This document shows, piece by piece, positions 4,324 to 39,929 of a DNA stretch of 50,311 nt. The notes beneath the pieces are model-generated. The model searched no databases, was not told the origin of the DNA, and was given only the letters and a program-made list of their open reading frames with translations. This DNA comes from Gemmatimonadota bacterium (GTDB lineage Bacteria > Gemmatimonadota > Gemmatimonadetes > Longimicrobiales > Gaopeijiaceae). The DNA lies in assembly GCA_028873845.1 (NCBI GenBank), contig JAPPNO010000101.1:1-50311 (forward strand). Direction: 5' to 3'. The translations under genes were made by a program, and so were the position numbers. Numbering within the stretch: position 1 is the first letter of the stretch; every line of letters starts with the position of its first letter.

Positions 4324-4571
4324 CACGATGCCTTCAAGTCGACAAGGGACATTGGAGTGCTGAAAAGCCAAGCTGCGTTTGGCGTGAGGTTGACCACCAT
4401 GGTAGCCCGGCGACTTGGCCGTCGCAACACGAGCGTTGTTCAATGAGGAATGAGCATGAGCAGGGGCCGGTTTCCAACGGAAAAGAGCATGAGGCGGGGT
4501 GCTTTGACACCTCCGACAAATGGGACGCCAACCCACGGAAACACCTGGAAGAACCGGCCCTTCAACGGGTG

Positions 4572-14793: not shown

Positions 14794-14841
14794 ACGGTTT
14801 CCTTGGTCCAAGCACAAAGAAGCGTAAGAGTGGAGAAGAGA

Positions 14842-16098
14842 ATGAGTGCCCTGAATCACTTGTCCCCGATGTCGTCAGCGCACCGACTCGTGGCAGCGCA
14901 GTTCCTTCTCCTCGCGTCCGCTCTCGCCGCCACATCATGCGGCGATGAAGCAGGCCTGGATCCGGCGGACACCCTCTCCACCTGGAGCCTGTCCGAGGAG
15001 CCCACCCTCGTCATCGGGGGGGCCGACGAGCGCGAGGACTACCTCCTTCACAAAGTCGTCGGAGTGGCGCGCCTTGGGGACGGCCGCATCGTCGTCGCGG
15101 ACGAAGGCAGTCTGGAACTGAAGTACTACGATCCGGAGGGGAAGCACCTCCTTGACGCCGGAGGCCCGGGCGAGGGCCCTGGCGAGTTGCAACCGCCCCT
15201 CTCCTACTTCACACGACTGCCCGGAGACTCGATCCTCGTCGCCTCCTGGCGCTCCGGATTCATTCGGTTCGGGCCTGACGGCCGGTACGCGAGTTCGATT
15301 CCGTACGAATTGCCTCCGCGCGGACGTTGCTGGTACTTCGAGGACAACGACCTGCTTCCCGATGGCTCGTTCCTGCTGCGCTACTCTGGAATCACCCGTT
15401 TCACGGACACCCACGAGCCGTGCCCCGAACCCGCCACGGGGCGGCCCCCGGTTGTGATCGGGCGGTACGTCCCCGCCACTGCGATGGGTATCGACACGAT
15501 CGCGGTGCTGCCCGGTTCCGAGCGGACCGGCGACCCCTTCAACCTGCACGCCTACGAGAAGGATCTGGTCGTGGGGATCGCGCCCGGTCGCCTCTATCTC
15601 GGCGACACCGGCTCCGACACCATCCTCGTGATGAACTTCCACGGCGACACCATCGGCGCGCTTCCCGTTCCCTTCGAACCGGCTCCCGTGCCCGCCGACG
15701 CCCGAGAGAAAGCGTTCGAGGACGTAACTGTCACCGGACTACACATGTCGGACGCGGGAGAGCGGCTGACCACGACAGAGCGCATGACCTTCATCTATTC
15801 CGATCACTATCCCCGCTACGCCAGACTCGTTGCCGCTCCACGGGATCGGGTTTGGGTGATGGCCTATCCGCCGTTGAAGGAGCCGGCGTTCCGGTTCGAG
15901 TTGACCATGGCGTCAGTGTTCCGCCGCCTGGAAGGTGGTGCGTGGTGGAGGGTGCTGGACCATGACGGACTGGTCATCGCCGAACTGCGCACGCCTCCCG
16001 GTTTCTTCGTGCTCGAGGTGGGCGACGAGCATGTCCTTGGTCTGCATAAGGATGAGTTGGAGCGCGAGAGTGTCCGGCTCTATCGGTTGATTCGGTAA
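14842..16098 (+). CDS. 6-bladed beta-propeller lipoprotein, subgroup 2, copy 3
   Basis: This 418-residue propeller lipoprotein has the lipobox LAATS-Cys33. The start ATG at 14842 is preceded by ggagaagag. The subgroup opening 'SLSEEPTLVIGGADEREDYL' and the signature 'GGPGEGPGEL' are intact, and it ends 'HVLGLHKDELERESVRLYRL', nearly the same as copy 1. An insertion unique to this copy ('FEDVTVTGLHMSDAGERLTT') lies before the last blade. The end faces the ABC permease gene; an AT-rich element lies in the convergent gap. Confidence 0.87.
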   Translation: MSALNHLSPMSSAHRLVAAQFLLLASALAATSCGDEAGLDPADTLSTWSLSEEPTLVIGGADEREDYLLHKVVGVARLGDGRIVVADEGSLELKYYDPEGKHLLDAGGPGEGPGELQPPLSYFTRLPGDSILVASWRSGFIRFGPDGRYASSIPYELPPRGRCWYFEDNDLLPDGSFLLRYSGITRFTDTHEPCPEPATGRPPVVIGRYVPATAMGIDTIAVLPGSERTGDPFNLHAYEKDLVVGIAPGRLYLGDTGSDTILVMNFHGDTIGALPVPFEPAPVPADAREKAFEDVTVTGLHMSDAGERLTTTERMTFIYSDHYPRYARLVAAPRDRVWVMAYPPLKEPAFRFELTMASVFRRLEGGAWWRVLDHDGLVIAELRTPPGFFVLEVGDEHVLGLHKDELERESVRLYRLIR

Positions 16099-16142: not shown

Positions 16143-16186
16143 AGTCAACTGCGCTTGACAAAATGTAATTCGCAGTTGACATATCG
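16143..16186. repeat. AT-rich palindromic element A
   Basis: A perfect 10-bp inverted repeat (gtcaactgcg at 16144-16153, cgcagttgac at 16171-16180) flanks a core with aaaatgtaatt. The right side, cagttgacatatcg, matches the equivalent part of element C at 30670. It lies between two convergent genes, where a promoter for either would not be expected. Confidence 0.65.
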
Positions 16187-21388: not shown

Positions 21389-24300
21389 CTACCCGCCCGG
21401 CACCCTCACCACCTCACCCACCGCTGGCCTCACGCCCTCCGCGTAGAGCCGCGCATTGAGCGCCGGCACACGCGACGTGATCAGCTGGTTGAGCGGCTCG
21501 ACCAGCTCTTGCATGACCTCCCAGGCGCGGTCGACCTGCCACATCTGGTCCTCGGTCGGCAAGGTGGACGATTGCTCGATGGCCCCCGCGGCTCCCGCGT
21601 GACGGCTCGCCTCCTGCAGGTCGTCCTGGACCTCCTCAAGCGCGGCACGGATAGAATCCAGCTCCTCCTTGACGCCCACGGGAGGTTCGGCTGCCGCGCC
21701 GATCAGTTCCTCGGCCGCGTCCAGCTGCTTCCCGAGCTTCTCGATCGCGCGGCCCGCTTCGTAGAGGGGCACTGCCAGCGTGTGCAGGCGCATCAGCTCA
21801 TGCTGGCGTGCCTTGCGGTCGGCGGAGGCCATGGGGCGACGCGGGTCGGCATGGACCTCGAACTCGGCGGAGAAGGTCTCGTTGGCGACCGTCATGCTGA
21901 CCCTGTAGTAGCCGGGCAACACGATCGGGCCCTGCGGTGCGCCACCGCCCTGGCGCGGTTCCGGCTCATACGGCGGGTCGTGGCGCCAGTCCCAGATGAC
22001 CTCGTTGATGCCCGCCTCGGACGGGGCCTCGAGGGTGCGGATGTGGTTGCCGTGCGCGGTGGTGATGGTGAGGGAGAAGGTGGCCTCGGCGGAGCCGCCG
22101 CCGTCCGCGCCCGAAGAGGCTGCCGTGCTTCCCGCAGGCTCAACGGCACCCACAACGCCGCCGTCTCCGGCGCCGGAACCGTCGTCGCCGCCTGAACCGT
22201 CGCCCTCCTCCCCACCCCCCTCCTCCGCCACGACCGGCGCCTCCCACTCGTCACGCAGGTAGTAGCGGATCCTCGCTCCCCGGGGCGGGTTCGGCGCGGA
22301 ATACGTCGCGCCCTGGAACGGCCAGTCGCCGCGCTCGGCCCACATGATCGATTCGCGCGCGGGCGGGAAGACGCGCCCCGCCTCGGCCAGCATCTCGTCG
22401 GACAGATGCTCGAGCGCGGTCACGTCGGCGAGGATCCAGAACGAGCGGCCGTGGGTGCCCACCAGGAGGTCGTTGTCGCGGGGGTGGATCAGGATGTCGT
22501 CGACCGGGACCGTGGGCAGGTTGTTCTTGAGCTGCACCCAGCGACCGCCGCGGTCGACCGAGACGAATACGCCGACCTCGTTGCCGACGAAGAGCAGGTT
22601 GGGGGCGCGGTGGTGCTCGGTGATCACGTTGATGGACCAGCCGTCGGGGAGGCCTTCGGTGATTTGGGCCCAGTTGTCGCCGTAGTCCTCGCTGACGTAC
22701 ACGTATGCCGCGTAGTCGCCGTTGCGGTGGCCGTCGAAGGTGGCGTAGACGCGGGCTTCCTCGTGCGCGGACGGTTCGAGGCGGCTGACGTAGGTGCGCT
22801 CGGGGAGTCCGGGGATCCGGTCGACGACATTGGTCCAGGTCTCGCCGTCATCGCGGCTCACCTGAACATTGCCATCGTCGGTGCCGACATAAAGCAGCCC
22901 GGGGACGACCGGCGATTCCGCGAACGCCGTAATGTTGCCGTAGCCCGAGATCCCGTCGTTGGCCGACATCTGCGGCTCCGAGCCGGGGACGCCCATGATC
23001 TCCAGCTCGGTGCGGTCGATCTGTCTGCTGAGGTCGATGCCCCCCACCTCCTCCCACGACATCCCCCGGTCGCGCGAGCGCATGAGGTAGTTGGCGCCGA
23101 GGTACACCGTGGACGGGTCGTGGGGCGACAGCTGGAGCGCCGAGTTCCAGTTGAAGCGGTACGTCTTGGCGGTGTCGCCGTCTTCGCGCGGGCCGGTGAT
23201 GGGACGCATGCGCGTCTTCTCGCCGGTGTTGAGGTCGTAGCGGTTCATGTTGCCGCCCTGCGACTCGGAGTAGACGATCGACGAGTCGGTGGGGTCGACG
23301 ATGGTGAAGAAGCCGTCGCCGTAGACGGTCTCGTACCAGTCCTGGTGGCGGATGCCATGGAAGGAGCGCGTGTTCGACGGGCCGCACCAGGCGTCGTTGT
23401 CCTGGAGGCCGCCGCAGACGTAGTACGGGTCGCGCATGTCGTAGCCGATCGCGTAGAACTGACCGAGTGCGAGGTTGTCGAACATGCGCCAATGCGCCGT
23501 GCCATCCCACGAGGCGGAGACGCCGCCGTCGCTGCCCAGGATGAGGTGGTCGGGGTCGTTCGGGTTGATCCAGAGGGCGTGATGGTCGACGTGGATCTGC
23601 GTGGCGCCGTCGCGGCGGAAGGTGCGGCCGCCGTCGTCGGAGACCATGAGCGAGGTGCCCAGGACGTAGATGCGGTCGGAGTTGCCCGGGTCGATGCGGA
23701 CCTGGGAGTAGTACATGGGGCGCGGGTTGGTGTTCGACATGCGCTCCCAGGTGTCGCCGCGGTCGAGGGAGCGGTAGAGGCCGCTCTGGCGCGGGCCGCC
23801 TCCTCCGCCGCCGCCACCAGCACCGGGCCGCCGGGGAGTGCGCGCGTCGGCCTCGATCAAGGCGTAGACCACGTTGCCGTCCTGGCGGAAGACGTCGACA
23901 CCGATCCGGCCCTTGTCGCCCTTGGGCAGCCCCTCGGTGAGCTCGGTCCAACTGTCGCCGCCGTCGAAGGTGCGGTAGAGACCGCTCCCCGGACCGCCCC
24001 CGTTGAAGCCCCATCCCGTGCGCTGCCGCTGGTACATCCCCGCGAAGATCGTGTTTGGGTCGCCCGGGTCCATGGCGAGGTCGATCGCGCCGGTGTGGTG
24101 GTCGATGTAGAGGACCTTCTCCCACCTTGCGCCGCCGTCTTTCGTGCGGAAGACGCCGCGTTCCTCGTTCGGCCCCCACAGGTCGCCCACCGCCGCCACG
24201 TACACGACGTCCGGATTGCGCGGGTGGATCAGGATGCGCCCGATGTGCTTCGTCCCCTCGAGCCCCATGTGCCGCCAGGTGTTTCCGGCGTCGGTCGACT

Positions 24301-24676
24301 TGTAGACGCCGTTGCCCCAGCCGGAGGACTGGCGGTTCTGCGGCTCGCCGGTGCCGACCCAGACGAGGTTCGGGTTCGACGGGTCGAGGGTGACGTCGCC
24401 GATGGAGCTCGTGGGCTGGTCGTCGAAGAGGGGCGTCCACGAGGTCCCGTGGTTCTCGGTTTTCCAGACGCCGCCGGTGCCGGTCGCGATGTAGAAGACC
24501 TGGGGCTTCGACTCGACCACCGCGAGGTCGGCGATGCGGCCGCCCATGAGCGCGGGGCCGAGCTCGCGGTACCGGAGGTGCGAGATGGCGGTCTCGAGGG
24601 TGGTCTGGGCGTTAGCGCCGGCTGGGGCCAAAACGGCGGCGCCGATGCACAGAACGAAGAAGCTACGGGTTTTCAT
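21389..24676 (-). CDS. exported Vps10/BNR-repeat protein
   Basis: This 1095-residue exported protein has a signal peptide ending in GANAQ. It is followed by about ten Asp-box (BNR) motifs of the S-x-D-x-G-x-T-W type, for example 'KSTDAGNTW', 'RTFDGGDSW', 'RSLDRGDTW', 'VSDDGGRTF' and 'VSRDDGETW'. These form the sortilin/Vps10-like multi-bladed propellers. A polyglycine linker lies near residue 290. A Gly/Asp/Glu-rich low-complexity stretch near residue 810 separates the propellers from a C-terminal beta-sandwich and an alpha-helical tail. Related proteins are often called glycosyl hydrolases, but no catalytic residues can be assigned. The start overlaps the upstream propeller gene by 14 bp, implying translational coupling. 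Confidence 0.9.
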   Translation of the reverse strand: MKTRSFFVLCIGAAVLAPAGANAQTTLETAISHLRYRELGPALMGGRIADLAVVESKPQVFYIATGTGGVWKTENHGTSWTPLFDDQPTSSIGDVTLDPSNPNLVWVGTGEPQNRQSSGWGNGVYKSTDAGNTWRHMGLEGTKHIGRILIHPRNPDVVYVAAVGDLWGPNEERGVFRTKDGGARWEKVLYIDHHTGAIDLAMDPGDPNTIFAGMYQRQRTGWGFNGGGPGSGLYRTFDGGDSWTELTEGLPKGDKGRIGVDVFRQDGNVVYALIEADARTPRRPGAGGGGGGGGPRQSGLYRSLDRGDTWERMSNTNPRPMYYSQVRIDPGNSDRIYVLGTSLMVSDDGGRTFRRDGATQIHVDHHALWINPNDPDHLILGSDGGVSASWDGTAHWRMFDNLALGQFYAIGYDMRDPYYVCGGLQDNDAWCGPSNTRSFHGIRHQDWYETVYGDGFFTIVDPTDSSIVYSESQGGNMNRYDLNTGEKTRMRPITGPREDGDTAKTYRFNWNSALQLSPHDPSTVYLGANYLMRSRDRGMSWEEVGGIDLSRQIDRTELEIMGVPGSEPQMSANDGISGYGNITAFAESPVVPGLLYVGTDDGNVQVSRDDGETWTNVVDRIPGLPERTYVSRLEPSAHEEARVYATFDGHRNGDYAAYVYVSEDYGDNWAQITEGLPDGWSINVITEHHRAPNLLFVGNEVGVFVSVDRGGRWVQLKNNLPTVPVDDILIHPRDNDLLVGTHGRSFWILADVTALEHLSDEMLAEAGRVFPPARESIMWAERGDWPFQGATYSAPNPPRGARIRYYLRDEWEAPVVAEEGGGEEGDGSGGDDGSGAGDGGVVGAVEPAGSTAASSGADGGGSAEATFSLTITTAHGNHIRTLEAPSEAGINEVIWDWRHDPPYEPEPRQGGGAPQGPIVLPGYYRVSMTVANETFSAEFEVHADPRRPMASADRKARQHELMRLHTLAVPLYEAGRAIEKLGKQLDAAEELIGAAAEPPVGVKEELDSIRAALEEVQDDLQEASRHAGAAGAIEQSSTLPTEDQMWQVDRAWEVMQELVEPLNQLITSRVPALNARLYAEGVRPAVGEVVRVPGG

Positions 24677-25940
24677 GGTTGCTGGCAGTCTCCACAGGGG
24701 TGATCTTCGCGCGCACCACGTACGGCACGTCCAGTTCGTCGAACACGACCGTCCAGTAGTAGTCGCCCCGGATCACGGGTCTCAGCCAGAACAGGGTCTC
24801 CAGCGCCGCCGGGGCGGTGCTGCCCAGGTAGGCGCCGTCCGGGGCCAGGACATCGTAGGTGATCCCACCGCCCGCCGACGAGGTCCGGACCCACAGATTC
24901 CCCTCCGCCGAGGTGACCAGGCCGAGCACCGCCGGCTTCACACCGGGGATCCTGGACCAGTCCTCCTCGGTCTCAACGCCCTGCTCGCGGAGCCACGCAC
25001 GCACCTCCGCGACCGCGGAGTCGCGCTCGGCGCCGGTGACGGGCAGCGGCGGCCGCTGCGTCTCCACGACCAGCAGGGTGTCGCCCCCGGGCATCCATTT
25101 CCGGACCCGGTGCGCGGGGTCCCCGAACGCGGCCGACCACATCGCTCCGGACGGGTCGAACGCGGTGGCTCCACCGGGATAGAACGGCACCTGGCGCACC
25201 CTCCACCCGCCGTCCGACTCCACGAGGAAGATGCTCGGGTCTTCGTCGCCAACGTCTTCGGCCGCGGGGGGAAGCGTGAGCGACGGCAACTCGGTCATCG
25301 TGGAATCGAAGACGCGCATCGTATTGCTCGAGTGCTTCAGGATGCGTCCGTCGGCGGTCATGGCGCCCGTCCAAACCCAGCCCCGCACGAAGCTCGTGAA
25401 CGGGAACGACTCGACGAACCCGCCTTCGGGATCGAAGACGGACATGCGTGCAGCGTAGGAGTCCGGCACCCAGATGCGCCCCGACGGGTCGAGCATCAGT
25501 CCGTTCGCGCCGACGAACTCGCCGGGGCCCTCTCCCCGCTGGCCGTGGGTGGCCACATGGGACCCGTCGGGGGCGAAGACGCGGATCTCCAGCGACTGGG
25601 ACTCGAGCACGGCGAAGCCACCACCCGCCAGTCCCACCAGACCCTTGATCTCTCCGAAGGATTCGGCCAGACCCGCCTCCACCGTGCCGACGCGGATTTC
25701 CTCGACCAGCGTCCAGATGGGAGCTGTCTGCGGGGGCGGGGTGTTGGTGACCTGCACGACGCCCGAGGGAAGCGTGTCCCTGACGACGGTCCAGTCGTTC
25801 GCCGGGGCCGATTCCGAGCAGGCGGTGGTCGCGATGGCCGACGCGGCCAGGATGCCGGGTACAAACCCGCGCGGGCGTCGAGAGCGACGGGGAGCCGGGA
25901 TGGCAGGACGGTTCGAAACAGGAATGGTGGCACTATTCAC
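24663..25940 (-). CDS. 6-bladed beta-propeller lipoprotein
   Basis: This 425-residue propeller lipoprotein starts at GTG 25940, chosen because ggggagg lies 8 nt upstream. The open frame runs 147 bp further but without a ribosome site. A twin-arginine-rich leader (RRSRRPRG) precedes the hydrophobic core and the lipobox ATTA-Cys41. The signature '[20 protein letters not shown]' and blade repeats ('LDPSGRIWVPDSYAARMSVF', 'TSAEGNLWVRTSSAGGG') are clear. Its end overlaps the start of the Vps10/BNR gene. The two exported propeller proteins are thus probably made together. Confidence 0.87.
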   Translation of the reverse strand: MNSATIPVSNRPAIPAPRRSRRPRGFVPGILAASAIATTACSESAPANDWTVVRDTLPSGVVQVTNTPPPQTAPIWTLVEEIRVGTVEAGLAESFGEIKGLVGLAGGGFAVLESQSLEIRVFAPDGSHVATHGQRGEGPGEFVGANGLMLDPSGRIWVPDSYAARMSVFDPEGGFVESFPFTSFVRGWVWTGAMTADGRILKHSSNTMRVFDSTMTELPSLTLPPAAEDVGDEDPSIFLVESDGGWRVRQVPFYPGGATAFDPSGAMWSAAFGDPAHRVRKWMPGGDTLLVVETQRPPLPVTGAERDSAVAEVRAWLREQGVETEEDWSRIPGVKPAVLGLVTSAEGNLWVRTSSAGGGITYDVLAPDGAYLGSTAPAALETLFWLRPVIRGDYYWTVVFDELDVPYVVRAKITPVETASNHENP

Positions 25941-26100
25941 CGGACAACCTCCCCGAGGTGATGGGAATTCTGTGTGAGTGGGACGCACACCGGAACATCG
26001 GAATCCGCGCCGCGGTACGAAAGACCATGGCGCGCATCCGGGACGCGCCCAACGACATGGCTCCCGCCCAGGCCCACGCTCCATCACGAGGGAGAGACCG

Positions 26101-28650: not shown

Positions 28651-29844
28651 TTGGCCGACTACGGCGGCATTCCGACTTCACCGCGGGCGTCGGTGCGGAT
28701 GCCCGGACCGGTTGTATCACGGCTGGTCGCTGTCATTGCCCTCACCCGATCACCATCGTGGACGTTGGCCCGCCTGCCGCGACTCGTTGCCGCCGGACTC
28801 GTCACGGCCCCGGTCCTCGCCCCCTCCCCCACCCTGTCCGCCCAGCAACCCGTCCCCGTGTCCGGCGAGGTCACCTGCGCGGACTGCGTCATCACAATGG
28901 ACACCGTCGCCACGATCGGCGGACGAGAGGACTTCGGCAACCATGTGATCACCCCGTTCTCGCAGGTGGCGGTCGACCGCCGCGGCCGGGTCCTGATCAC
29001 GCACCTCAGCTACCCCGAGATCTCCATCTTCGACCTGGACGGCGACTTCCTCGGGACCGTGGGCCAGGAAGGCGACCGCCCCGGCGAGTACGACGGAATC
29101 GCCCACGTCAACGCCGGCCCCCGCTTCGTCCACGTCTTCGAGTTCCACCGGGGACGGACGATGCTCGACCTCGGCTTCGAGGTGGCGCGCACGGACCGTT
29201 CGCTCGGGCAGGTCCTTTCGTCGGTGGTGATCGGCGCCGACGAAGTCGCGTTCGCGGTCCCGGTTCCCGAGCCGGCCACGGTAGGTCACCAGCTGCGCAT
29301 CCTTGACGCGAGGGGCCGAATCTCGTCCTTCGGCGGCGAGGATCCCGTGGCGCCCGGGCCGCAGCCGCACAGATTCGTGGTGGCAGGCGACGAGGAGACC
29401 TTCTGGGCCGTGCGCCAGCAGGTGAACCGCGTGGTGCGCTGGAACCTGGAGCCGGAGCCGGTCGTCGCGCGGGTGTTCGACCGGACCGTCGAGGTGTTCG
29501 AGCGGGACAACCCGTCGGCGCAGCTCTGGCCGCGCGCCCTCAATGTGGGGGCCATGCTCGACGACGATGGCCTCTGGATCGCGTGGCAGACGCCCGATCC
29601 CGGGTGGACGGAGCGAATCAGCCCCGGCGGCGAGATCCCCGAAGTGCCGTGGCAGACCGTGCTGGACGGCTGGCTGGACCTGGTCGACCCCTCAACGGGA
29701 CAAACGCTGGCCCGCTACCGCGGCGACGACGCGCTGCTCGGCTTCGCGCATGGTTCGAGGTACGTGGTGTCATACCATGAGCCGAACGCGGGGGGGGCGT
29801 ATATTCGGCTGCTGGAGCCGAGGGTGATGCGGGGGACGCCGTAG
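28651..29844 (+). CDS. divergent 6-bladed beta-propeller protein, secreted
   Basis: This 397-residue exported protein has a signal peptide ending in LSAQQ rather than a lipobox, so it is probably soluble in the periplasm or released. TTG 28651 was chosen because ggagg lies 7 nt upstream; ATG 28699 is the alternative. After the signal comes 'VTCADCVITMDTVATIGG' with a CxxC pair. The signature is altered to 'GQEGDRPGEYDG'. It then has 'AVDRRGRVLITHLSYPEISI' and later blades. It is distinct from both the tandem array and the subgroup at 10.7-16.1 kb. Confidence 0.8.
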   Translation: MADYGGIPTSPRASVRMPGPVVSRLVAVIALTRSPSWTLARLPRLVAAGLVTAPVLAPSPTLSAQQPVPVSGEVTCADCVITMDTVATIGGREDFGNHVITPFSQVAVDRRGRVLITHLSYPEISIFDLDGDFLGTVGQEGDRPGEYDGIAHVNAGPRFVHVFEFHRGRTMLDLGFEVARTDRSLGQVLSSVVIGADEVAFAVPVPEPATVGHQLRILDARGRISSFGGEDPVAPGPQPHRFVVAGDEETFWAVRQQVNRVVRWNLEPEPVVARVFDRTVEVFERDNPSAQLWPRALNVGAMLDDDGLWIAWQTPDPGWTERISPGGEIPEVPWQTVLDGWLDLVDPSTGQTLARYRGDDALLGFAHGSRYVVSYHEPNAGGAYIRLLEPRVMRGTP

Positions 29845-29876: not shown

Positions 29877-29908
29877 GACCCGCATCGGACAGGCGGTCGG
29901 TGCGGGTC
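29877..29908. terminator. hairpin between convergent genes
   Basis: An 8-bp perfect stem (gacccgca/tgcgggtc) spans the gap between the propeller gene and the end of the PIN toxin gene. It overlaps the toxin stop codon by 2 bp. It has no T-tract. Position is the main support. Confidence 0.3.
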
Positions 29909-30296
29909 AGGGCAGATCCCAAAGCGGGATGCCGAGGGCGCTGGCGGCGTTCGTCATTCGAGCGTCGTAGCTGGCGAGTTCGACGCGCTGCCCCCGGTCC
30001 CGTAGAAACAGGCACGATGCAAGGTGCAGCGCGTCGAGTGTGCGGACGGACACCGGGAACGGGTCAAGCGCACGGGCCAATACGATGGGAGCCAGCTCGA
30101 GCAACGAGATCCGAGCGATCACCTCCCGCGCGGCCTCGGCGCGCGACGCCTTCGCCTGCCGGGCGTGCAGGCGAGTCCAGATCTCGTACTCCAGCAGACG
30201 GCTCGAAACGAGGGTTTCGGTCCAGAACGAAGCCGGGGGTCGCCGGTCTTCCGCGAACATGTGGGCCAGGACGACCGAAGTATCGGCGTAGATCAC
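29907..30296 (-). CDS. VapC-like PIN-domain toxin
   Basis: This PIN-domain ribonuclease of 129 residues is paired with the antitoxin just upstream. The metal-site acids are Asp5 ('MIYADTSVVLAHM'), Glu in 'SRLLEYEIWTRLH', Asp in 'RTLDALHLASCLF' and Asp in 'LASYDARMTNAA'. It is intact and of usual length. The start codon overlaps the antitoxin stop by 4 bp (ATGA), giving coupled translation. It differs in sequence from the FitB-type toxin at 20929, so the two systems are independent. Confidence 0.92.
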   Translation of the reverse strand: MIYADTSVVLAHMFAEDRRPPASFWTETLVSSRLLEYEIWTRLHARQAKASRAEAAREVIARISLLELAPIVLARALDPFPVSVRTLDALHLASCLFLRDRGQRVELASYDARMTNAASALGIPLWDLP

Positions 30297-30586
30297 CGGT
30301 CGCTACGATCGCCTTCCAGTTCACTGAGCAACACGCAGAGTGGCGCCTCCGGCGGCCCGCCACGAGGGGGCTCGGATCCGGGAGAGAGTGCGGGTGTCAA
30401 CCAACCCTTCCGCACGGCATCGGCGAGCAAGGCATCCGCCAGTACAGGACTCCTCGTCTCTCGCGGAGGGCCGATCTCGGCGACGACGCGGCCCCGATCC
30501 GTGACGAGAACGGTCTCGCCACCGGCCGCCAGGCGCACGTACTCACTGAGCCTGCTGTTCAACGCCCTGATTCCGATGGATCGCAT
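30293..30586 (-). CDS. Phd/YefM-type antitoxin
   Basis: This 97-residue antitoxin has the Phd/YefM N-terminus 'MRSIGIRALNSRLSEYVRLA', followed by 'GGETVLVTDRGRVVAEIGPP', the fold that binds DNA as a dimer. The C-terminal part, rich in Pro and Gly ('ALSPGSEPPRGGPPEAPLC'), would be the flexible toxin-binding tail. A Phd-type antitoxin joined to a PIN toxin is a known combination. A perfect palindrome lies 9 bp upstream of the start and is the likely autoregulatory site. Confidence 0.9.
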   Translation of the reverse strand: MRSIGIRALNSRLSEYVRLAAGGETVLVTDRGRVVAEIGPPRETRSPVLADALLADAVRKGWLTPALSPGSEPPRGGPPEAPLCVLLSELEGDRSDR

Positions 30587-30746: not shown

Positions 30747-32042
30747 TCAGTTCACCTCGCGCGGCACCCTTTTCACCACCACCGTCTCCACGCCCAACTC
30801 GTCCCTTTCGATGAAGGCGGCCAGGCCATCGGGGCCGAAGGCACCCGGAATCTCGGTCTCGCCGGTTCGATAGCTGCCCACGTACCGGCCCGCCGCGTCC
30901 AGCACGTCGATGGGACTGACACTCACCGGTTCATCGCCGCGCCGCCGGACCCAGATCATGCCGTTCCATGTCGTGTGGAGGCCGCGGATGACGGGGACCA
31001 CGCTCCAGTACTCCAGATCCTCGATTCTCTTGCGCTGCCTGTTCCGCTCCTCCGCAGGATCAACATCCCCGGCCCGGATGTTCATGAAACTTCGCGGCCT
31101 CAGTTCGTCGTCCGGCCTGGCCGCCAGTTCCTTAAGGCGGCGGTCCTTGTCCGCCCTGATCAGACGATCGGTCATCGGCTCGACCGGAACGGGCCGTGTC
31201 AGGATGCGCGCCACCGTCCCCCCCAAGGCGATCTTGACGGCGTAGGCCGACGAGTCCGAAAACGCCACCGCTCCGTCGGGAAGAACGCCCCAGTGCAATC
31301 CGGGAACGAGCTGGGGCGGCAGAGTGATGGTCACTCCGCCCTCGGGTGTTTCGCTCATGCGCATCGTCCCCCCGGGTGGCAGCCACGCTTCGGCGATCGT
31401 GTCCCGAGCGACCTCCTCACCGGACAGATCCACGCGTTCGATGGGTCGCGACGCATGCTCCGGCAGTTCGGGCAATCCGGCCTCGTCCAGGGCCCGAACG
31501 GTCGTGACGGTCCTCGACCCCCCCGACATGCTCGTGACCACTGCATCGGTACCTCGAACGGGCACATGGGACCCGACGGCCGTGTAGGACGGATCCCCAC
31601 CCATCCGCACCATCCGCTCGAAGTCGCCGTTTGCATCGAAGAGGTGGTAGGCGCGGTGTTCCAGGTCGGCTACCGCGACGCGCCCGTCCTCCAGGGCCAC
31701 GAAATCAACCGCCATGCGGAACTCCCCCGGGCCTTCTCCCTCCCGCCCGATCTCGCGGATCAACGAGCCGTCGGTGTCCACGACGAAGATCCGCTCGGCC
31801 TGACCGTCGAACACATGGAGTCGGCCCGCACCGTCGAACATCACCTTTTGCACTTCGCCGAACTGTTCCCACTCCTCGCCCATCAGGGACCCTATCCGGA
31901 ACACCTCCTCGAAGTCGGCGTCGAGCCAGCGGTCTTCGCCGGGTAGTTCGATGGTCTTCTGGGCGCTGAGGGAGGCGGCTGCCAGCCACCCCAGTGTGAT
32001 CGGAGACAGAATGCGCGTGGTCGCTTGCCCAATCCTGATCAT
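30747..32042 (-). CDS. array 6-bladed beta-propeller, member A1
   Basis: This is the most downstream intact member of the tandem array. Its 431 residues start with a 28-residue signal peptide ending SLSAQ, with no lipobox. The array hallmarks are all present: '[20 protein letters not shown]' directly after the signal, 'WEQFG', 'GREGEGPGEF' (99-108), '[20 protein letters not shown]', 'DRLIRADKDRRLKELA', and the C-terminal '[20 protein letters not shown]' followed by '[20 protein letters not shown]'. An insert with 'SFMNIRAGDVDPAEERNRQR' is unique to it. A ggaag/ggagc-type site precedes the ATG at 32042. The closest relative by eye is A3, sharing the ending KRVPREVN. Confidence 0.9.
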   Translation of the reverse strand: MIRIGQATTRILSPITLGWLAAASLSAQKTIELPGEDRWLDADFEEVFRIGSLMGEEWEQFGEVQKVMFDGAGRLHVFDGQAERIFVVDTDGSLIREIGREGEGPGEFRMAVDFVALEDGRVAVADLEHRAYHLFDANGDFERMVRMGGDPSYTAVGSHVPVRGTDAVVTSMSGGSRTVTTVRALDEAGLPELPEHASRPIERVDLSGEEVARDTIAEAWLPPGGTMRMSETPEGGVTITLPPQLVPGLHWGVLPDGAVAFSDSSAYAVKIALGGTVARILTRPVPVEPMTDRLIRADKDRRLKELAARPDDELRPRSFMNIRAGDVDPAEERNRQRKRIEDLEYWSVVPVIRGLHTTWNGMIWVRRRGDEPVSVSPIDVLDAAGRYVGSYRTGETEIPGAFGPDGLAAFIERDELGVETVVVKRVPREVN

Positions 32043-32071
32043 GTCTCTCGGCTCCTTCCGCAGCGATTCTC

Positions 32072-32120
32072 GTAGTACGACAACATTCGTAACTACTCAC
32101 CACCGCCTACCAATTGTCAA
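32072..32120 (-). promoter_or_regulatory. possible promoter with dyad upstream of A1
   Basis: Reading towards A1, a perfect -35-like TTGACA (32115-32120) is followed by an imperfect dyad, gtagt(t)acga-N6-tcgtactac (32072-32096), 30 bp before the start codon. No good -10 hexamer is seen at the normal spacing. The 108-bp gap upstream of A1 is larger than the one above A2, so a separate promoter is plausible. Confidence 0.3.
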
Positions 32121-32150
32121 GTCACCAACGACCCCTCCACTGCTTCCGGC

Positions 32151-33404
32151 TCAGTTCACCGGGCGCGCGGCCAGCCTCTTCACCACCACCGTCTCCACAT
32201 CCAGTTCATCCGTCTCGATGAACGCGACCAGCCCGTCGGGCCCGAAGGCATCCGGAATCTCCGTGGCACCCGGGCGGTAGCTGCCCAGGTATCGGCCATC
32301 AGCCGTGAGCAGGTCGATGGGGCCGTCGCTGACGGGTGCCTCACCCCGCCGCATCACCCAGATGTCGCCGTCCAGCGTCACCGCGAGTCCACGGATCACC
32401 GGGATCTCCGTAAAGAATCTCAAGTCGTCGATCCGGTCGCGCTCTTCCCGCAGGTCTTCCCCCGGCTCGGCCTCCTCCTCCAATTCCGCCAAGCGCCGTC
32501 CTTTTTCGCCGCGAATCACGCCGTCCGTGACCGGTTCGGGCGGGATTGGGCGCGTCAGGATCCGCACGACGCCGGTTCCCGCTTCGGCGATCTTCACCGC
32601 GAAGGTCGTGGAGTCCGAAAACGCCACTCTGCCATCGGGCATGACTCCCCAGTACAGGCGTGGCGCGAATGTGCGCAGCCGCGGTCGCTTGAACTCGTAA
32701 CCGTTGGGCATCCGCCCCAATGACACGGAGTCCACAGGCGGAAGCCAACCCACTGAGACGGTGTCCTTCACGGCCTCCGTTCCGGTCAGCAGGACCCGCT
32801 CGACGGACCGGGACGTGGCGGGGCGCGGCCGACCGCTTTCATGGCTCCATTGGGCGGTAAAAGCGCCCAGTCCCCCCGTGGACACCGTGATCAGCGCGTC
32901 GGCACCCGGCTGGGCGGCGATCGGCTCAAGCATGGCAGAGCCGGGATCGCCCCCCATCTTCACCGTTCTCACGGGGTCGCCATTGGCGTCGAAAATGTGG
33001 AATGAACGACGACCCAGCTCCGCTACCACCACTCGTCCGTCCGGAAAAACCGCCATCCGGTCGGCACCCTGGAACTCGCCCGGTCCCTCACCCTTGCGCC
33101 CAACGCCGTGGACCAACGCTCCCCCCCTGTCCACAACGACGATGCGGCCGGCGCCCCATCCCTGCCGGTCGAAGATGTGGAGCCGTCCCGCAGCGTCGAA
33201 TGCCACGGTACGCACATTGCCGAACTGTTCCCACTCCTCGCCCATCAGCGACCCGATTCGGTACACCTCCTCGAAGTCGGCGTCGAGCCAGCGGTCCTCG
33301 GCGGGGAGTTCGACGATCTCCTGGGCCGGCAACGGCACCGTGGGCAGCCAGAGCGCCGAGACCAGGGAAACGATGTGGACACTCGTTACGCCGAATCGGT
33401 TCAT
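32151..33404 (-). CDS. array 6-bladed beta-propeller, member A2
   Basis: This 417-residue member has the start ATG at 33404, with gagagag 3 nt upstream and a signal peptide ending in PLPAQ. The mature protein opens '[20 protein letters not shown]'. The second blade differs from the sisters in an insertion ('[20 protein letters not shown]'), and the signature is '[16 protein letters not shown]'. Near the C-terminus it has '[20 protein letters not shown]', and it ends KRLAARPVN. The gene lies 58 bp downstream of A3. Confidence 0.9.
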
Positions 33405-33462
33405 GTCTCTCTCTTTCCAATGTCTTTCACCGAGCGTGACCTGGCCCGCCATCGGCTCGTCC

Positions 33463-34782
33463 TCAGTTCACCTCGCGCGGCACCCGCTTCACCACCACCG
33501 TCTTCACCTCCAGCTCATCCTCCTCGATGAAGGCCACCAGCCCGTCGGGGCCGAAGGCGTCGGGGATCCCGGTCTCGCCCGTGCGGTAGCTGCCCACATA
33601 CCGGCCCGCCATGTCCAGCACATCGATGGGCCCGTCGCTGTCGGGTTCCTCACCCGGCCGCTGCACCCAGATCATCCCGGCCCAGCTTGCACCGAGATCG
33701 CGAATCACGGGGATTTCGGTGAAGAACTGCAGGTTTTCGATGTCCTCGCGCCTGGACTTCCTCACCTCGTCGGCGTCAATGGCCATGACCTCCCCGTTCA
33801 AGACGATTCGGGGCCCGCCCAGATCCTCGTCCGGCGTCTCCGCCAGCTCCTTTAGACGGCGACTCCTTTCCGCCCGCACAAGGCGATCCGTCACCGGTTC
33901 CGGGGCGATGGGCCGGGTCAGGACACGCTCAACGCCAATCCCGACCGTCACGATCCTGACGGCGTACGTGGAAGAATCCGAGAACGCCACAGTCCCGTTC
34001 GGGAGTGCGTCCCAGTGCAGATCGGGGCTGAATTCGGGCGGGCCGCTCAATCCGCCCAGACTGAAACTTGTTCCGCCGGCCGATCGCGTGATTCCGGACG
34101 TCGGATCCGCACTGGCTGGCAGCCACGCTTCCGCGACCGTGTCCTTGGCGATCTCGTCGCCGGACAGGTCGACGCGCTCGATTACCCGGGTCGTCGGGTC
34201 CGGCCGTTCAGCGGGTTCCGCGCCGGCAACGCTCCTGACCGAAATCGCCATCGTCCCGCCCTCCGTACTCGTGATCAGACCTTCCGCGCCGCGCAGGGGC
34301 ATGTGAGTCCCGATGACCGTGTACGTGGGGTCCCCTCCCATCCGGACCATCCGCTCGAAGTCGCCGTTGGCATCGAAGATGTGATAGGCGCGGTGATCCA
34401 TGTCGGCCACGACGACCCGCCCGTCATCCAGGACAACGATATCGGCCGCGTGGCGAAACTCACCCGGACCTTCGCCTCTTCGCCCGATCTCCCGGATCAG
34501 CGCGCCGTCGCTACCCACGACGAAGATCCGCTCGGCCTGGTCATCGAAGACGTAGAGCCGGCCGGCGCCGTCGAACGCCACCCTCCGCACATCGCCGAAC
34601 TGTTCCCACTCCTCGCCCATCAGCGACCCGATTCGGAACACTTCCACGAAGTCGGCGCCGAGCCAGCGGTCTTCGCCGGGGAGTTTGATGGTTTCCTGGG
34701 CGGAGGCTGCATGTACGATCAACGTACCTGCCGCCACGATGGTAAACGCCATACCTGACCAACGCTTGGCGATCCTGCTCAT
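33463..34782 (-). CDS. array 6-bladed beta-propeller, member A3
   Basis: This 439-residue member has a signal peptide ending in HAASAQ. It opens '[20 protein letters not shown]', with the signature '[20 protein letters not shown]' and '[20 protein letters not shown]'. It is the longest array protein; a segment '[20 protein letters not shown]' before the fourth blade is extra. It ends KRVPREVN like A1, and the last 150 bp of the two genes are very similar. ATG 34782 was chosen; the open frame runs on upstream in antisense to A4. An in-frame ATG at 34752 would remove the basic part of the signal. Confidence 0.9.
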
Positions 34783-34877
34783 TGGGGCACTGTCCTCGTC
34801 TGTTGGTTTCTCCCAAAACAGCCAGCCGCTGACGGTTGGACGCCTGTTCGAGTGGAATGGTTGGCAGGGTGCTGCCC

Positions 34878-36128
34878 TTACGGACCGGGAGTCTCCGCCA
34901 CTACCCGCTTCACCACCACCGTCTGCACGCCCAACTCGTTCCTCTCCATGAAGGCGACCAGACCGTCCGGACCGAAGGCATCCGGGATCCTGGTCACGCC
35001 CGCCCGGTAGCTGCCCAGGTAGCGGCCATCCGCGGTGAGCACATCGACCGGCCCGTCGTCGTGCGGGCCATCGCCTCGGCGGAGCACCCAGATGTGACCG
35101 TCCCAAGTGGTTCCCAAACCCCGGATGACGGACAATTCGTTGTGGAATTCGAGCCTCTCGATCCTTCTGCGCCGTCCCTCGAGGTTGGCCCCCGGCGCGG
35201 CCGTTTCCTCCAGCCGGCGCAGCCGCCGGTCCCTCTCGGCGCGGATCACCCGACCAGTCACCCGCTCGGGCGCGAAGGGACGTGTCAGGATCCGCACCAC
35301 CCCCGCCCCCACCTCGGCGACCTTCACCGCATACGTTGAGGAATCCACGAACGCCACGCGGCCGTCCGGAAGGACTCCCCAATGGAGCTCCGGGCTGAAT
35401 TCGGGCAGGTCGTCGGTCGGTCTCGGAGCTGCGTTCACCAGGGCCGTATGGTCCAGACCCTCGAGGTCGATTGGAGGCAGCCAGGCTTCCGCGATGGTAT
35501 CCGTGACGGACTCCTCACCGGACAGCACCGTTCGTTCGAACGGATGCGACGTGGGGAATCTGGCGGGTTCGCTGAACGCTGCTCCCGTGATCGTCCATGC
35601 GGTAGCCAGCGTGGGCACTCCGATGATCGCATCCGCGCCCGACCAGGCGACCACACGCCCGACCCCGAATGCGCCGGCCGGATTGGCCATGCGCACCATG
35701 CGCTCGAATTCTCCGTCGGCGGAGAAGAGGTGGAAGCCACGGCGGCTGATGTCGACGACTGCCACGCGCCCGTCGGCAAAGACCGCCATGGCGCCCGAGG
35801 TGGAAAACTCTCCAGGACCGTCGCCCGGCCCACCCAGCTCGCGGACCAGCCTGCCATCGATGCCCACGACATGGACCACCTGGGCCTGCTCGTCGAAGAT
35901 GTGCAGGTTGCCCGCGCCATCGAAGGACACGCTTCTGACCCGCCCGAACTGCTCCCATTCCTCACCCGTCACGGCCGTGCCCACCCGGTACAGCTCCTCG
36001 AAGTCGAGCGCCAGCCACCGATCCTCGGCGGGGAGGTCGACGACCTGCTGGGCAGTGGTCGGAGCCGCGACGACAAACCAGGCCAGCGTGGCCCCCCAAC
36101 CCATTCTCCGGCTCGCAATCGATTTCAA
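34878..36128 (-). CDS. array 6-bladed beta-propeller, member A4
   Basis: This 416-residue member starts at TTG 36128, chosen because ggagg lies 8 nt upstream and this gives a signal peptide of the same length as its sisters (basic '[11 protein letters not shown]', cleavage after PTTAQ). The first motif is '[19 protein letters not shown]'. The signature is altered to '[10 protein letters not shown]'. The fifth blade has '[20 protein letters not shown]'. The C-terminus reads '[19 protein letters not shown]'. Element D lies in the 130-bp gap upstream. The open frame continues to an ATG at 36218, but that start would put 30 charged residues before the signal. Confidence 0.87.
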
Positions 36129-36210
36129 TCTCTTTGCCTCCAATTCATCCCCCACCGGGGACCGAGGTGGCTTCAGCGACCTGGCGCCATCGGCTTCGCG
36201 CCCCGTTTTG

Positions 36211-36263
36211 CAACTCATATGTAAACTGCAGCTGACATTCTGTAAACTGTGATTGACTCTATC
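36211..36263. repeat. AT-rich palindromic element D
   Basis: Two direct copies of tgtaaactg (36220-36228 and 36241-36249) lie 21 bp apart. The second runs into gtgattgactctatcg, shared with element C. The end of the element overlaps the stop codon of array member A5 (TAG on the minus strand at 36259-36261). It is upstream of A4. Confidence 0.7.
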
Positions 36264-37521
36264 GCGATTCGTTCATGATTCGCTTGACAGCCACCGTCTG
36301 CACGTCCAGCTCGTTCGTCTCGATGAAGGCGGCCAGGCCATCCGGACCGAAGGCATCCGGAATCACGGTCGCACCTGCGGGAATGCTGCCAAGGTAGCCT
36401 CCCGCGGCCGTGAGCACATCGATGGGACCGTCATCGTCGGGCCCGTCACCGCGCCGCAACACCCAGATGCGCCCGTCCCAGGTCGTTGCCAGGCCACGTA
36501 TCACCGGCACTTCGGGGAAGAACTCGAGGTTGTCGAGGCGCTCGCCCGGGTCGAGCATGGTCCAGCCTTCGCCGACGTCGTCCGGTTTCTCGCGACGCCG
36601 GTCCCTCTCGGCGCGCATCGTGTGCTCCGTCACCGGCTCGGGCGGCAGCGGACGTCTCAGCACGCGCACGACCCCCGGGCCCGCCTCGGCGATCTTCACC
36701 GCATAGTCGGAGGAGTCCGAATACGCCACGCGCCCATCGGGCAGCACACCCCACTGCAAGGCGGGGGTGAAGGCGCGCTGCAGTCCCGGGAACATCGAAG
36801 GGAAGGCCAGGAACATGCCGCGGACCTGATCGTACCTTTCGGGAACGGCCGCGTCGTCGAGCGGATAGAGCCGCGGCTCGGCGATCGTATCCGTCTCGGC
36901 CTGCTCCCCGGTCAACATCGTGCGCTCGATGGCATGGCCGGTGGCGGGTGGCGGCGGGCCTCCCGGGCCGCTGACGAAATAGCTCTGCGACGCACTCGGG
37001 ATGCCGATGACTTCATCCACACCCGACAGGACCACGATCCTCCCACCCCTCAATGTCCCGTGCATGACGTTCATGCGCGACCGGTGCCCGGGGTCCCCGT
37101 TCGCGCCGAAGATGTGGAAGACGCAGTGCCCGACATCGGCCACGACCGCCCGGCCATCGCGCGCAACGGCGAGTGCCGTCGCCTGCCTGAACTCTCCGGG
37201 TCCCTCGCCCCTGCGGCCGAATCCGCGGATGTAAGACCCGTCGACACCGACGACGACGATTCGTTGGGCGCGGTTGTCGAAGACATGGAGGTTGCCTTCG
37301 CCGTCGAACCCCACGTCCGTGACGCTCCCGAATTGTTCCCATTTCTCTCCGCCGAGTGACCCGACGCGATAAAGGTCCTCGATGTTGAGGTCCAGCCAGC
37401 GATCCTCGGCGGGGAGGTCGATGATTTCCTGGGCGTATGCCGAAGGAGCGAGGAGCAGCCAAGGCAGGAGGATTCTGCATCCCGAATGTAAACTGTGATT
37501 TCCAAACTGTAACGTTTGCAT
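36259..37521 (-). CDS. array 6-bladed beta-propeller, member A5, with repeat-derived N-terminus
   Basis: This 420-residue propeller opens its mature part with '[20 protein letters not shown]' and has '[20 protein letters not shown]'. In the fifth blade it has '[20 protein letters not shown]'. The C-terminus is '[20 protein letters not shown]'. The first dozen residues ([12 protein letters not shown]) are encoded by AT-rich element E, so the start codon and the front of the signal peptide appear to come from the repeat. ATG 37521 has no good ribosome site. The frame is open further upstream and continues into a decayed paralog (A6) whose stop codon is lost, so a longer fusion protein is possible. 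Confidence 0.82.
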
Positions 37522-37526
37522 TACTA
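37484..37526. repeat. AT-rich palindromic element E
   Basis: It contains atgtaaactgtgatt, identical to the core of element D, then aaactgtaac and gcattact. On the minus strand it reads agtaatg near one end and agtttaca near the other, the same pattern as element F. The agtaATG supplies the start codon of A5. Confidence 0.7.
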
Positions 37527-37542
37527 TCCGGCAGCAAGGATC

Positions 37543-37660
37543 CCTGTTCACGACTCCACCAGCCTCCGTAACTACCGTCTCCACATCCAGCCCGTTCCGC
37601 TCGATGAAGGCGTCCAGTCCCCGATTGGCGTCGAACATGCGCTACGCGCGGTGTCCCGGC
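37543..37660 (-). pseudogene. array propeller remnant A6, internal deletion
   Basis: On the minus strand this stretch reads a fragment of the third blade (HR.AH, then FDAN) joined directly to the family C-terminus ('[15 protein letters not shown]', ending VVN). About 220 codons of the normal protein are missing between the two pieces. A frameshift separates HRVAH from FDAN. The terminal 'gttcac' (Val-Asn) is followed by cct where A3 has tca, so the stop codon has become a sense codon and the frame runs into A5. It is evidence that the array recombines. Confidence 0.65.
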
Positions 37661-37669
37661 GAGGCGGAC

Positions 37670-38071
37670 CTACTGGCGCCGCAATCCAAGGTGGCCGACC
37701 TGGAACTCACGGGCATCGCGCACACACACCGTCTCACCGGACAAGACCACCTCGTCTCGCAGCCTCGCGTTGTACCGGCACGTGGCTGTTCCCGCGGCGA
37801 TTTCGACGTTGAACTCGATCCATACATCCAGGAAGTCGCGAGTAGTGGCGAGGCTGGAGCCAGTCAGTGATCCGCTGACCTCCGAAGGCTCTTCGTCCCA
37901 TTGAATCCGATAGGTGCCCGACAGACGGCCATGCGAATCGTCGATCGTCAGGGTCCACACATCGGTTTCGAAGCGACTGCCCTGCCATGTTCCGGTTACG
38001 CGTCCTTCTTCGGAGTCGCAGCTCGCGAGCACCGTCATTGCGAGCAGGATGGAAGGGATGGATGATCGCAT
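37670..38071 (-). CDS. small lipoprotein, unknown function
   Basis: This lipoprotein of 133 residues is not a propeller. The ATG at 38071 starts a signal with lipobox LAS-Cys18 ('ILLAMTVLASCDSEEG'). The mature part has the regular beta pattern 'VTGTWQGSRFETDVWTLTID', 'GRLSGTYRIQWDEEPSEVSG', then 'CRYNARLRDEVVLSGETVCV', suggesting a small beta-barrel or lipocalin-like fold. I do not recognise the family. It interrupts the propeller array, same strand, and ends only 9 bp before the A6 remnant, so its last residues (REFQVGHLGLRRQ) may have been altered by that rearrangement. Confidence 0.7.
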   Translation of the reverse strand: MRSSIPSILLAMTVLASCDSEEGRVTGTWQGSRFETDVWTLTIDDSHGRLSGTYRIQWDEEPSEVSGSLTGSSLATTRDFLDVWIEFNVEIAAGTATCRYNARLRDEVVLSGETVCVRDAREFQVGHLGLRRQ

Positions 38072-38140
38072 TCTGGCACACTCCTGTCCAAACGGTGTCA
38101 AATGATCCTCATACCCGCAGTATCGTCTGTGGACTCCCGC

Positions 38141-38680
38141 TCACAACCCCACCGGCCTCCGTACTACTACCGTCTCCACATCCAGCTCGTTCCGCTCGAT
38201 GAAGGCGACCAGGCCGCCCGGTCCGAAGGCATCCGGCATCGCCAACGCACCCGCCGGACAGCTCCCCAGGTACCGGCCGTCCATCGTCAGCACGTCGATC
38301 GGGCCCTGGTCGTCGCTCGGTTCGTCGCCGTGTCGTTGCACCCAGATCTCGCCGCCCAAACCCGTCCTCAGGTCGCGAACCATCGAAACTGCGTCGTAGA
38401 ACTCCAGATTCGCGATCCGTTCACGTGTCGCTCGATTGACGACCTGCGAACGCTCTTCGGCCATCCTCAAGCGACGTTCCCGTTCGGCAGTCCTGAAGCG
38501 GCGCGTCACGGGGATCGGCTCCAGCGGCCGCTTCAGGATCCGCCATACACCTGACCCCGGCCGCGCGATCTTGATGGCGTACGCCAACGAATCCGAAAAA
38601 GCCACGACTAAGCACGCCACGCCGAGCGCCTTTACCGCTCCGCTATGCGACATGAACTCAGCAAGGTGTAAACTTCTCAT
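38141..38680 (-). pseudogene. array propeller A7, C-terminal half only
   Basis: Only the last 165 or so residues of a propeller survive. The match starts at '[20 protein letters not shown]' and continues through '[20 protein letters not shown]' to '[20 protein letters not shown]'. The N-terminal 240 residues, including the EDRWL motif and the GPGEF signature, are absent. In their place is a new front, '[20 protein letters not shown]', whose first residues are encoded by AT-rich element F. The new front is hydrophobic enough to act as a signal, so a truncated exported protein could be made, but no ribosome site is seen. The nearest full-length relative is A8. Confidence 0.7.
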
Positions 38681-38707
38681 TACATAGTGGAAATCACACA
38701 TTACTTT
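38665..38707. repeat. AT-rich palindromic element F
   Basis: The element reads gtgtaaac, then attacatagtggaaatcacacattact. On the minus strand it begins agtaatg and has agtttaca 33 bp later, as in element E. The start codon of the truncated propeller A7 (38680) lies inside it, at the exact place where homology to other propellers is lost. Confidence 0.65.
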
Positions 38708-38747
38708 TCGCTCGCCGTCCAGACGGGAGATTGTGGGTCGTGCCCGA

Positions 38748-39929
38748 CTATCTTCCCCACGGTGCAAGCCGTCTCACTACCACCGTCTTCACGTCCAACT
38801 CGTCGGTCTCGACAAACGCAACCAGACCATCAGGGCCGAACGCGGCCGGCATCGCGATCGAACCCGCGGCATAGGTTCCGACGTAGCGCCCGTCCATCGT
38901 GAGGACATCGATCGGACCGAAGTCGTCGGTCGGTTCCTCTCCGTGGCGCTGCACCCAGATTTCCCCGTCCCAACTGGTCCCCAGTTCGCGGACGATCGGG
39001 AATTCATCGGAGAACCTCAAATTGGCGAGATGCCGGAGTTCGAATTCCCGCAAGCCGGGATCGAGTCCCTGCAGCCGCTCTCGCCGACGGTCCTTCTCGG
39101 CTTCCATCATCCTGCCGGTCACGGCGACCGGCTGGAGCGGCCGGGTCAGAACGCGCACCACACCGGCCCCCGGCCGCGCGATCCTGATCACGTACGCCGT
39201 CGAGTCCGAGAAGGCCACGCTCCCGTCCGGGAGCATACCCGCCGACATCCGCGGCCCGAACGCGATCGGCTCTCGCAATCCGTTGTAGAGTTCCCCGTCC
39301 GGGGGTAGCCAGCCGTCGGCAACCGTGTCCCGGCTCACCACGTCGCCGCTGAGGTCGTGGCGCTCGATTGGCCGGGTGGTGGGCGATGGGGCGTTGGCAA
39401 CGAAGCTGAAGGACAGCATTTGAGCGCCCACCGCGGAGAATACGGCGTCGCCGAGGGGATCGGGCATGAAGTTCCACAACACCATGGCCTCCAGCCCCTC
39501 GCCCATGCGTACCCGGCGTTCGTAGTCCCCGTTCGCGTCGAAGATCTCGTAAGCGCGGTCCGCCTGATCCGCGACCACCACTTTGCCACCAGGCGTGACC
39601 GCGAACCAATGCGCGTTCCTGAATTCACCCGGGCCCTCGCCCCGGCCTCCCAGTGTGCGGTGCAGGCCGCCGCTCCGGTCCACCACGAAGATCCGCAAAG
39701 CCTGCCTGTCGAAGACATGGAGCCGCCCGGCACCGTCAAAGGCCACGTTGCGGATGTTTCCGAACTGCTCCCAGTCCGCGCCCGCCAAGGACCCGATCCG
39801 GTAGAGTTCCTCGAACATGGGCTCCAGCCGGCGGTCACCGGAGGGGAGCTGAATGATCTCCTGGGATTCAGCCGACGCCGCGAACAGCAACGCCGCCCCC
39901 GCTATTGTCGAGAGAGAATGGATCTTCAA
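38748..39929 (-). CDS. array 6-bladed beta-propeller, member A8
   Basis: This is the first gene of the array in transcription order: 393 residues, starting at TTG 39929 with ggggaggag just upstream. The signal peptide ends in ASAESQ. The N-terminal motif has drifted to '[20 protein letters not shown]', but '[20 protein letters not shown]' and '[20 protein letters not shown]' are clear. The fifth blade is '[20 protein letters not shown]'. The C-terminus is '[20 protein letters not shown]'. It is shorter than A1-A3 by 25-45 residues. About 270 bp without a recognisable gene separate it from the HupE/UreJ gene upstream, room for a promoter. Confidence 0.9.

Follow-up and report, generated by a model that had tools for sequence, protein, structure and literature searches.

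The window analysed here, a stretch of 50,311 nucleotides from a Gemmatimonadota bacterium, carries at positions 30747-39929 a family of six intact open reading frames (ORFs) and two decayed units, which stand head to tail on the minus strand and code for predicted exported beta-propellers. This array is a birth-and-death family, shaped by the differential gain and loss of old gene lineages rather than by gene conversion or continuing local amplification: a syntenic locus varies in copy number, orthologous lineages are older than the species that carry them, and decayed members are present. On balance, we favour a reading in which the array belongs to a genus-wide expansion and its proteins serve as extracytoplasmic modules for ligand binding or sensing, with a specificity that differs from copy to copy.

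Organization of the array

The intact proteins share 44-62% pairwise identity, with E values down to 1e-164, far beyond chance. They are M1 (30747-32042; 431 amino acids, 682 bits against the array profile), M2 (32151-33404; 417 amino acids, 686 bits), M3 (33463-34782; 439 amino acids, 708 bits), M4 (34878-36104, with an alternative start up to 36218; 408 amino acids, 676 bits), M5 (36259-37521; 420 amino acids, 681 bits) and M8 (38748-39929; 393 amino acids, 626 bits), all on the minus strand. Just upstream of M5 lies the first decayed unit, a minus-strand tail fragment (37567-37620) holding 18 C-terminal residues of a lost copy that are 83% identical to the tail of the other decayed unit, F7 (E 0.001; tblastn with F7 as query); the ORF-caller start of M5 falls within this fragment, and 37521 is its likely start. 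F7 itself (38141-38767, minus; 208 amino acids, 222 bits) retains the C-terminal half only (profile positions 263-412), preceded in frame by a short hydrophobic stretch resembling a signal peptide, and is 61% identical to M8 across 154 amino acids. A small lipoprotein ORF (37670-38101; 143 amino acids), unrelated to propellers and without a reliable family match, separates the two decayed units.

ORF coordinates, identities and profile matches thus agree with the original prediction of six intact and two decayed tandem paralogues on one strand. The alignment of the array proteins displays a conserved motif after the signal peptide, a GEGPGEF loop and, as had been claimed, an almost invariant C-terminus. 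The two signatures thought to be common to all members are less strict: the EDRWL motif that follows the signal peptide in M1-M5 is replaced by GDRRL in M8, and the GEGPGEF signature, although general, reads GDGPGEF in M4.

At the array, lost propeller genes have left short, isolated C-terminal tails in at least six species (37567-37620 in the window, 4289-4372 in locus L010, 3603-3734 in L091, 3023-3160 in L096, 14388-14606 in L111 and 4529-4693 in L117), isolated short N-terminal pieces being rare there. The retained tail perhaps carries something needed by the next gene.

Export and predicted fold

All six intact proteins start with a hydrophobic segment that ends in an Ala-x-Ala-Gln or similar cleavage site and lacks a lipobox cysteine, features read from the sequence that are suggestive of proteins probably Sec-exported and soluble. 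When the whole-protein score is held against the gathering score (22.9) of the Pfam six-bladed beta-propeller family PF17170 (DUF5128), M1 (36.7), M3 (42.5) and M8 (31.1) lie above it and M2 (14.0), M4 (15.6) and M5 (19.8) below, the match being partial and covering about 50-105 of the 321 profile positions. The NCBIfam ScyF NHL protein family (NF035926) yields scores of 20-40 against the required 350, and no enzyme family of Pfam or NCBIfam matches the array proteins.

For M2, AlphaFold2 run with 20 relatives gave a model with a pLDDT of 83 and a pTM of 0.82, least confident in the variable regions (pLDDT under 50 at residues 177-193). Its list of strands and its match to solved NHL propellers point to a six-bladed NHL-type fold. 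The best structural match is the NHL domain of Brat (1q7f; Z 19.1, rmsd 4.2, 264 residues), and comparison with the Bacteroides DUF4221 protein 3s9j gave a Z of 17.5; a Foldseek search with the same model retrieved 4raa, and its list also includes SMP-30/Drp35 lactonases and a peptidyl-amidoglycolate lyase. With the six blades assigned from the order of the predicted strands and not from measured coordinates, the N-terminal strand 44-50 would join strands 392-398 and 404-411 to form blade 6; a closing blade built in this way from N- and C-terminal segments would account for the constancy of both protein ends. By prediction and comparison, the family thus appears to be one of Sec-exported six-bladed NHL-type propellers.

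Copy number and orthology at the syntenic locus

A HupE/UreJ-like membrane protein gene (PF13795; 40203-41636, minus) upstream and a beta-lactamase-fold serine hydrolase gene (PF00144; 26876-28336, minus) downstream bracket the same locus in most congeners. Copies were counted in 12 species with both anchors on one stretch, arrays running off contig ends being left out and most of the relatives compared being metagenome-assembled genomes (MAGs). Full-length copies number nine in G008, six in the window, five each in G034, G012 and G014, three in G009, two each in G018, G032 and G033, one in G004 and none in G001 and G006. The zero count of G001 is reliable because this is a single-contig assembly; G006 has no full copy, yet retains a C-terminal tail. 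Decayed propeller units are present in most of the loci sampled. Copy number therefore does shift between relatives, from zero to nine, as had been anticipated, and the stable one-to-one set of orthologues in all relatives that had been named as the contrary outcome is not what these species hold.

The window genes do not group together in a tree of 110 family members. For each of M1, M2, M3, M5 and M8, one of G007, G013 and G034 supplies an orthologue, and M4 forms a clade with genes of G005 and G012. Identity to the orthologue is 85% for M1 (G007), 87% and 82% for M2 (loci L009 and L010), 88% for M3 (G013) and 86% for M5 (G007), and M8 has orthologues in both G007 and G013. The order M8-M5-M4-M3-M2-M1 is found again, with gaps, in G007, G034 and G013. 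When nearest relatives are sought segment by segment, they lie within the same genome for just 2-6 of the 79 genes at the locus (2 of 77 at the C-terminus); the single clear case of a recent tandem pair is in G008. Between the window paralogues, dS is about 0.8-1.6. The family is thus, as originally proposed, a tandem one with intact and decayed copies, and its copy number changes between relatives; the window copies, however, do not stem from recent duplication. Amplification still under way in this genome is not supported, given the paralogue dS, the orthologues that most copies have elsewhere and the scarcity of nearest relatives in the same genome. On the same scarcity, seen in every segment, gene conversion of the constant ends was rejected.

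Variation along the proteins

Identity between window paralogues is 0.67-0.75 at the two ends and 0.57-0.65 in blades 1, 2, 4 and 5, and falls to 0.28 in blade 3, 0.35 in the insertion between blades 3 and 4 and 0.41 in the helical insertion between blades 4 and 5. The expected pattern of constant ends and a variable middle was therefore found; divergence is not uniform along the proteins but concentrates in blade 3 and the two insertions. Between orthologues, identity is 0.85-0.91 along the whole mature protein, and dN/dS (0.17-0.42 per copy; 0.16-0.29 per segment, and never above 0.3 for a segment of the mature protein) gives no sign of ongoing positive selection. Among the strands, variability is highest in the inner strands A lining the channel (mean entropy 1.69 versus 1.07-1.40), and many of the invariant residues are glycines and aspartates of the NHL turns.

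For the window genes, the ratio of amino-acid difference in the middle to that in the framework is 1.02 (0.82-1.29) between orthologues and 1.80 (1.58-2.06) between paralogues. A wider control with reciprocal best hits across all congeners gave a ratio of about 1.5 at low divergence, and the strong form of the proposal that the middle is equally constrained, which the first sample had suggested, was dropped. Since the middle is also faster among orthologues in this wider set, part of the pattern reflects weaker constraint. The youngest same-genome pairs have ratios of 2.86, 2.46 and a median of 1.89 (n = 1, 1 and 6), a comparison made on only eight pairs below 0.25 framework divergence that are not independent of each other; at framework divergences of 0.15-0.35, the medians are 1.80 for same-genome pairs versus 1.67 (Mann-Whitney p 0.0007, with pairs again not independent). 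The middle is thus in general somewhat less constrained, changes further after duplication and then settles. Because young paralogues exceed orthologues and orthologue dN/dS is low, diversification looks tied to duplication and subsequently held by purifying selection. Selection for diversity in the middle, as first put forward, is only partly supported: by the greater difference of young paralogues than of orthologues when framework divergence is equal (2.9, 2.5 and 1.9 against about 1.5), but not by the orthologue dN/dS values.

Neighbouring genes and an intergenic element

A divergent secreted propeller-like gene on the plus strand (28699-29844, also given as 28651-29844) adjoins the array in most congeners, and the match of its product to NCBIfam ScyF is restricted to the NHL part. 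A PIN-domain toxin and Phd/YefM-like antitoxin pair (29907-30586) lies between this gene and the array; an antitoxin homologue is kept at the same place in G013. Elsewhere in the window, ORFs at 24663-26087, 6355-7479 and 13402-14793 match the array profile weakly, and those at 10683-11951 and 14803-16098 have distant BLAST similarity to a propeller-type domain. A 1095-amino-acid Sortilin/Vps10-type multi-Asp-box propeller (21389-24676) is strongly conserved next to the array in congeners. No M56 peptidase, TonB receptor or transporter gene adjoins the array, sigma-70 promoters and terminators are no more frequent in it than in shuffles, and an Rfam scan of the window matched a tRNA at the window edge as sole hit.

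An AT-rich palindromic element (consensus AATGTAAAgc..ACTTTACATAATGTAAACT..AGTTTACATT, with half-sites every 21 bp) occupies intergenic positions centred at 16162, 17801, 30695, 36239, 37506 and 38686 of the window and many loci besides. Its matrix found 64 sites at 16 bits in 0.72 Mb versus one in the reversed control. The element is genus-specific: perfect cores TTACANNNTGTAA number 4-51 per genome in eight congeners and 0-2 in 73 other Gemmatimonadota. Four window sites sit 20-62 nt past propeller coding ends. The occurrence of the element in tandem, convergent and divergent gaps leaves its reading as an ordinary promoter unsettled; operator, promoter and REP-like element are candidate roles.

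Expansion in the genus and association with M56 peptidases

The array profile has 131 matches in this 4.05-Mb genome, and the exact GEGPGEF codon pattern occurs at 89 sites, the reversed pattern at none. In a survey of 150 genomes of the phylum, including ten of this genus, the motif was found 38-134 times per genome in the genus, against 0-21 times in other genera of the family and 0-15 elsewhere in the phylum (reversed control, 0 or 1). From the published taxonomy (PMC10469786) and the names of close relatives, we infer Palauibacter or a close sister, known chiefly from sponges, as the probable genus, and a sponge association as probable for the bacterium. We found no literature report on DUF5128 or six-bladed propellers in Gemmatimonadota, nor of their expansion. 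An exported propeller family that sister families almost lack accounts for around a hundred genes of one 4-Mb genome, and one locus documents the gain and loss of such genes over at least a dozen species; this makes a tractable system for finding out what all these propellers recognise, in a genus that is probably known chiefly from sponges.

Six of the 12 M56 (BlaR1-type) peptidase genes of this genome lie within 2.5 kb of a propeller gene, versus 1.5 expected (binomial p 0.002, two genes on one contig being counted as separate), and an M56 ORF of 785 amino acids ends in a propeller-type domain 79% identical to the neighbouring propeller-type lipoprotein. This ORF, on contig C78 (locus L079, 8230-13416), is followed by the gene of that lipoprotein and by an array-type propeller gene, likely a sensor operon. 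This proximity and fusion suggest that some family members are sensor domains. None of the 12 M56 genes is found on the contig of the window (C18).

Discussion

We propose that each gene of the array encodes a rigid framework made of blades 1, 2, 4 and 5 and of a closing blade 6 that would combine C-terminal strands with one N-terminal strand, and that a variable patch, different in each copy, is made up of blade 3 together with the insertions that follow blades 3 and 4. Once a gene has duplicated, this patch would change fastest while the framework stays; later, the copy would either decay through truncation and deletion or persist under purifying selection as an orthologous lineage of its own. 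The array may be one hot spot of the genus-wide propeller expansion. Its proteins plausibly bind or sense ligands outside the cytoplasm, with specificities differing by copy, as the combination of variable channel-lining strands and invariant structural turns fits differing ligands better than one shared catalytic chemistry. For sensing, the related propellers that adjoin M56 peptidases elsewhere in this genome, one of them as a fusion, lend indirect support.

Secreted, eukaryotic-like NHL proteins might instead act on the sponge, each copy with its own host partner, a possible if unlikely alternative. Animal NHL domains are the best structural matches of the M2 model, NHL repeats are counted among the eukaryotic-like domains of sponge symbionts (PMC5524777), and the close relatives are MAGs that we place in a sponge-associated genus (PMC10469786). 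The propeller fold is, however, common and not confined to eukaryotes, and free-living relatives of sponge archaea have NHL repeats as well (PMC7848895). Beyond Sec, the proteins showed no secretion signal, and dN/dS bears no mark of an arms race.

That the proteins are propeller enzymes of the lactonase, lyase or hydrolase type, with a substrate differing by copy, we consider unlikely. The presence of six-bladed lactonases and a lyase in the Foldseek list and the flanking beta-lactamase-fold hydrolase, retained in most congeners, speak for such a role. In six-bladed propeller enzymes, strands A carry the channel-lining ligands, and SMP-30/Drp35-type hydrolases have a conserved Glu/Asn/Asn/Asp metal site in the channel. 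The array proteins match these enzymes at the level of the fold only; their strands A are the most variable ones, many of their invariant residues belong to NHL turns, and Pfam and NCBIfam enzyme families fail to match them.

It is quite unlikely that the copies are functionally equivalent, their number drifting through neutral duplication and loss and their middle being merely less constrained. The decayed units at most sampled loci, the absence of full copies from two species and the faster middle of orthologues in the wider set are consistent with such drift, but the orthologous lineages are retained from species to species, in a common order and under low dN/dS, the middle of the window genes is as conserved as the framework between orthologues, and young paralogues differ more than orthologues do. 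A cassette system for antigenic variation, in which duplication continues and gene conversion acts on the constant ends, is extremely improbable: the ends are constant, the middle is variable and synonymous divergence among paralogues is slightly lower at the ends, but paralogue dS is near 1, the layout is without silent cassettes, and in every segment, the C-terminus included, few genes have their nearest relative in the same genome.

Returning to exported binding or sensing modules, we may speculate, with little confidence, that the genus has built about a hundred exported propeller receptors with copy-specific patches, partly coupled to signal transduction of the M56 type and accompanied by the genus-specific palindrome next to many of the genes, as the analogue of a chemoreceptor repertoire inside an animal host.

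Several known systems resemble the array in part. Elsewhere in this genome, a propeller-type domain replaces the extracytoplasmic sensor domain of BlaR1/MecR1-type sensors (peptidase M56), whereas the array itself includes no M56 gene. The PF17170 (DUF5128) proteins are likewise exported six-bladed propellers, and M1, M3 and M8 pass the gathering score of this family; M2, M4 and M5 fall under it, and the profile match is partial. The TRIM-NHL propellers (Brat, TRIM2, TRIM71) share the six-bladed NHL fold, with Z up to 19.1, and are matched in sequence profile searches down to an E value of 1e-31, but these proteins are eukaryotic, cytoplasmic and RNA-binding, whereas the array proteins are bacterial, probably exported and bear long insertions after blades 3 and 4. 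Bacteroides BF0058 (4raa) and BVU_1028 (3s9j, DUF4221), finally, are exported bacterial six-bladed propellers of similar fold and unassigned function, which differ from the array proteins in sharing just 10-11% identity with them.
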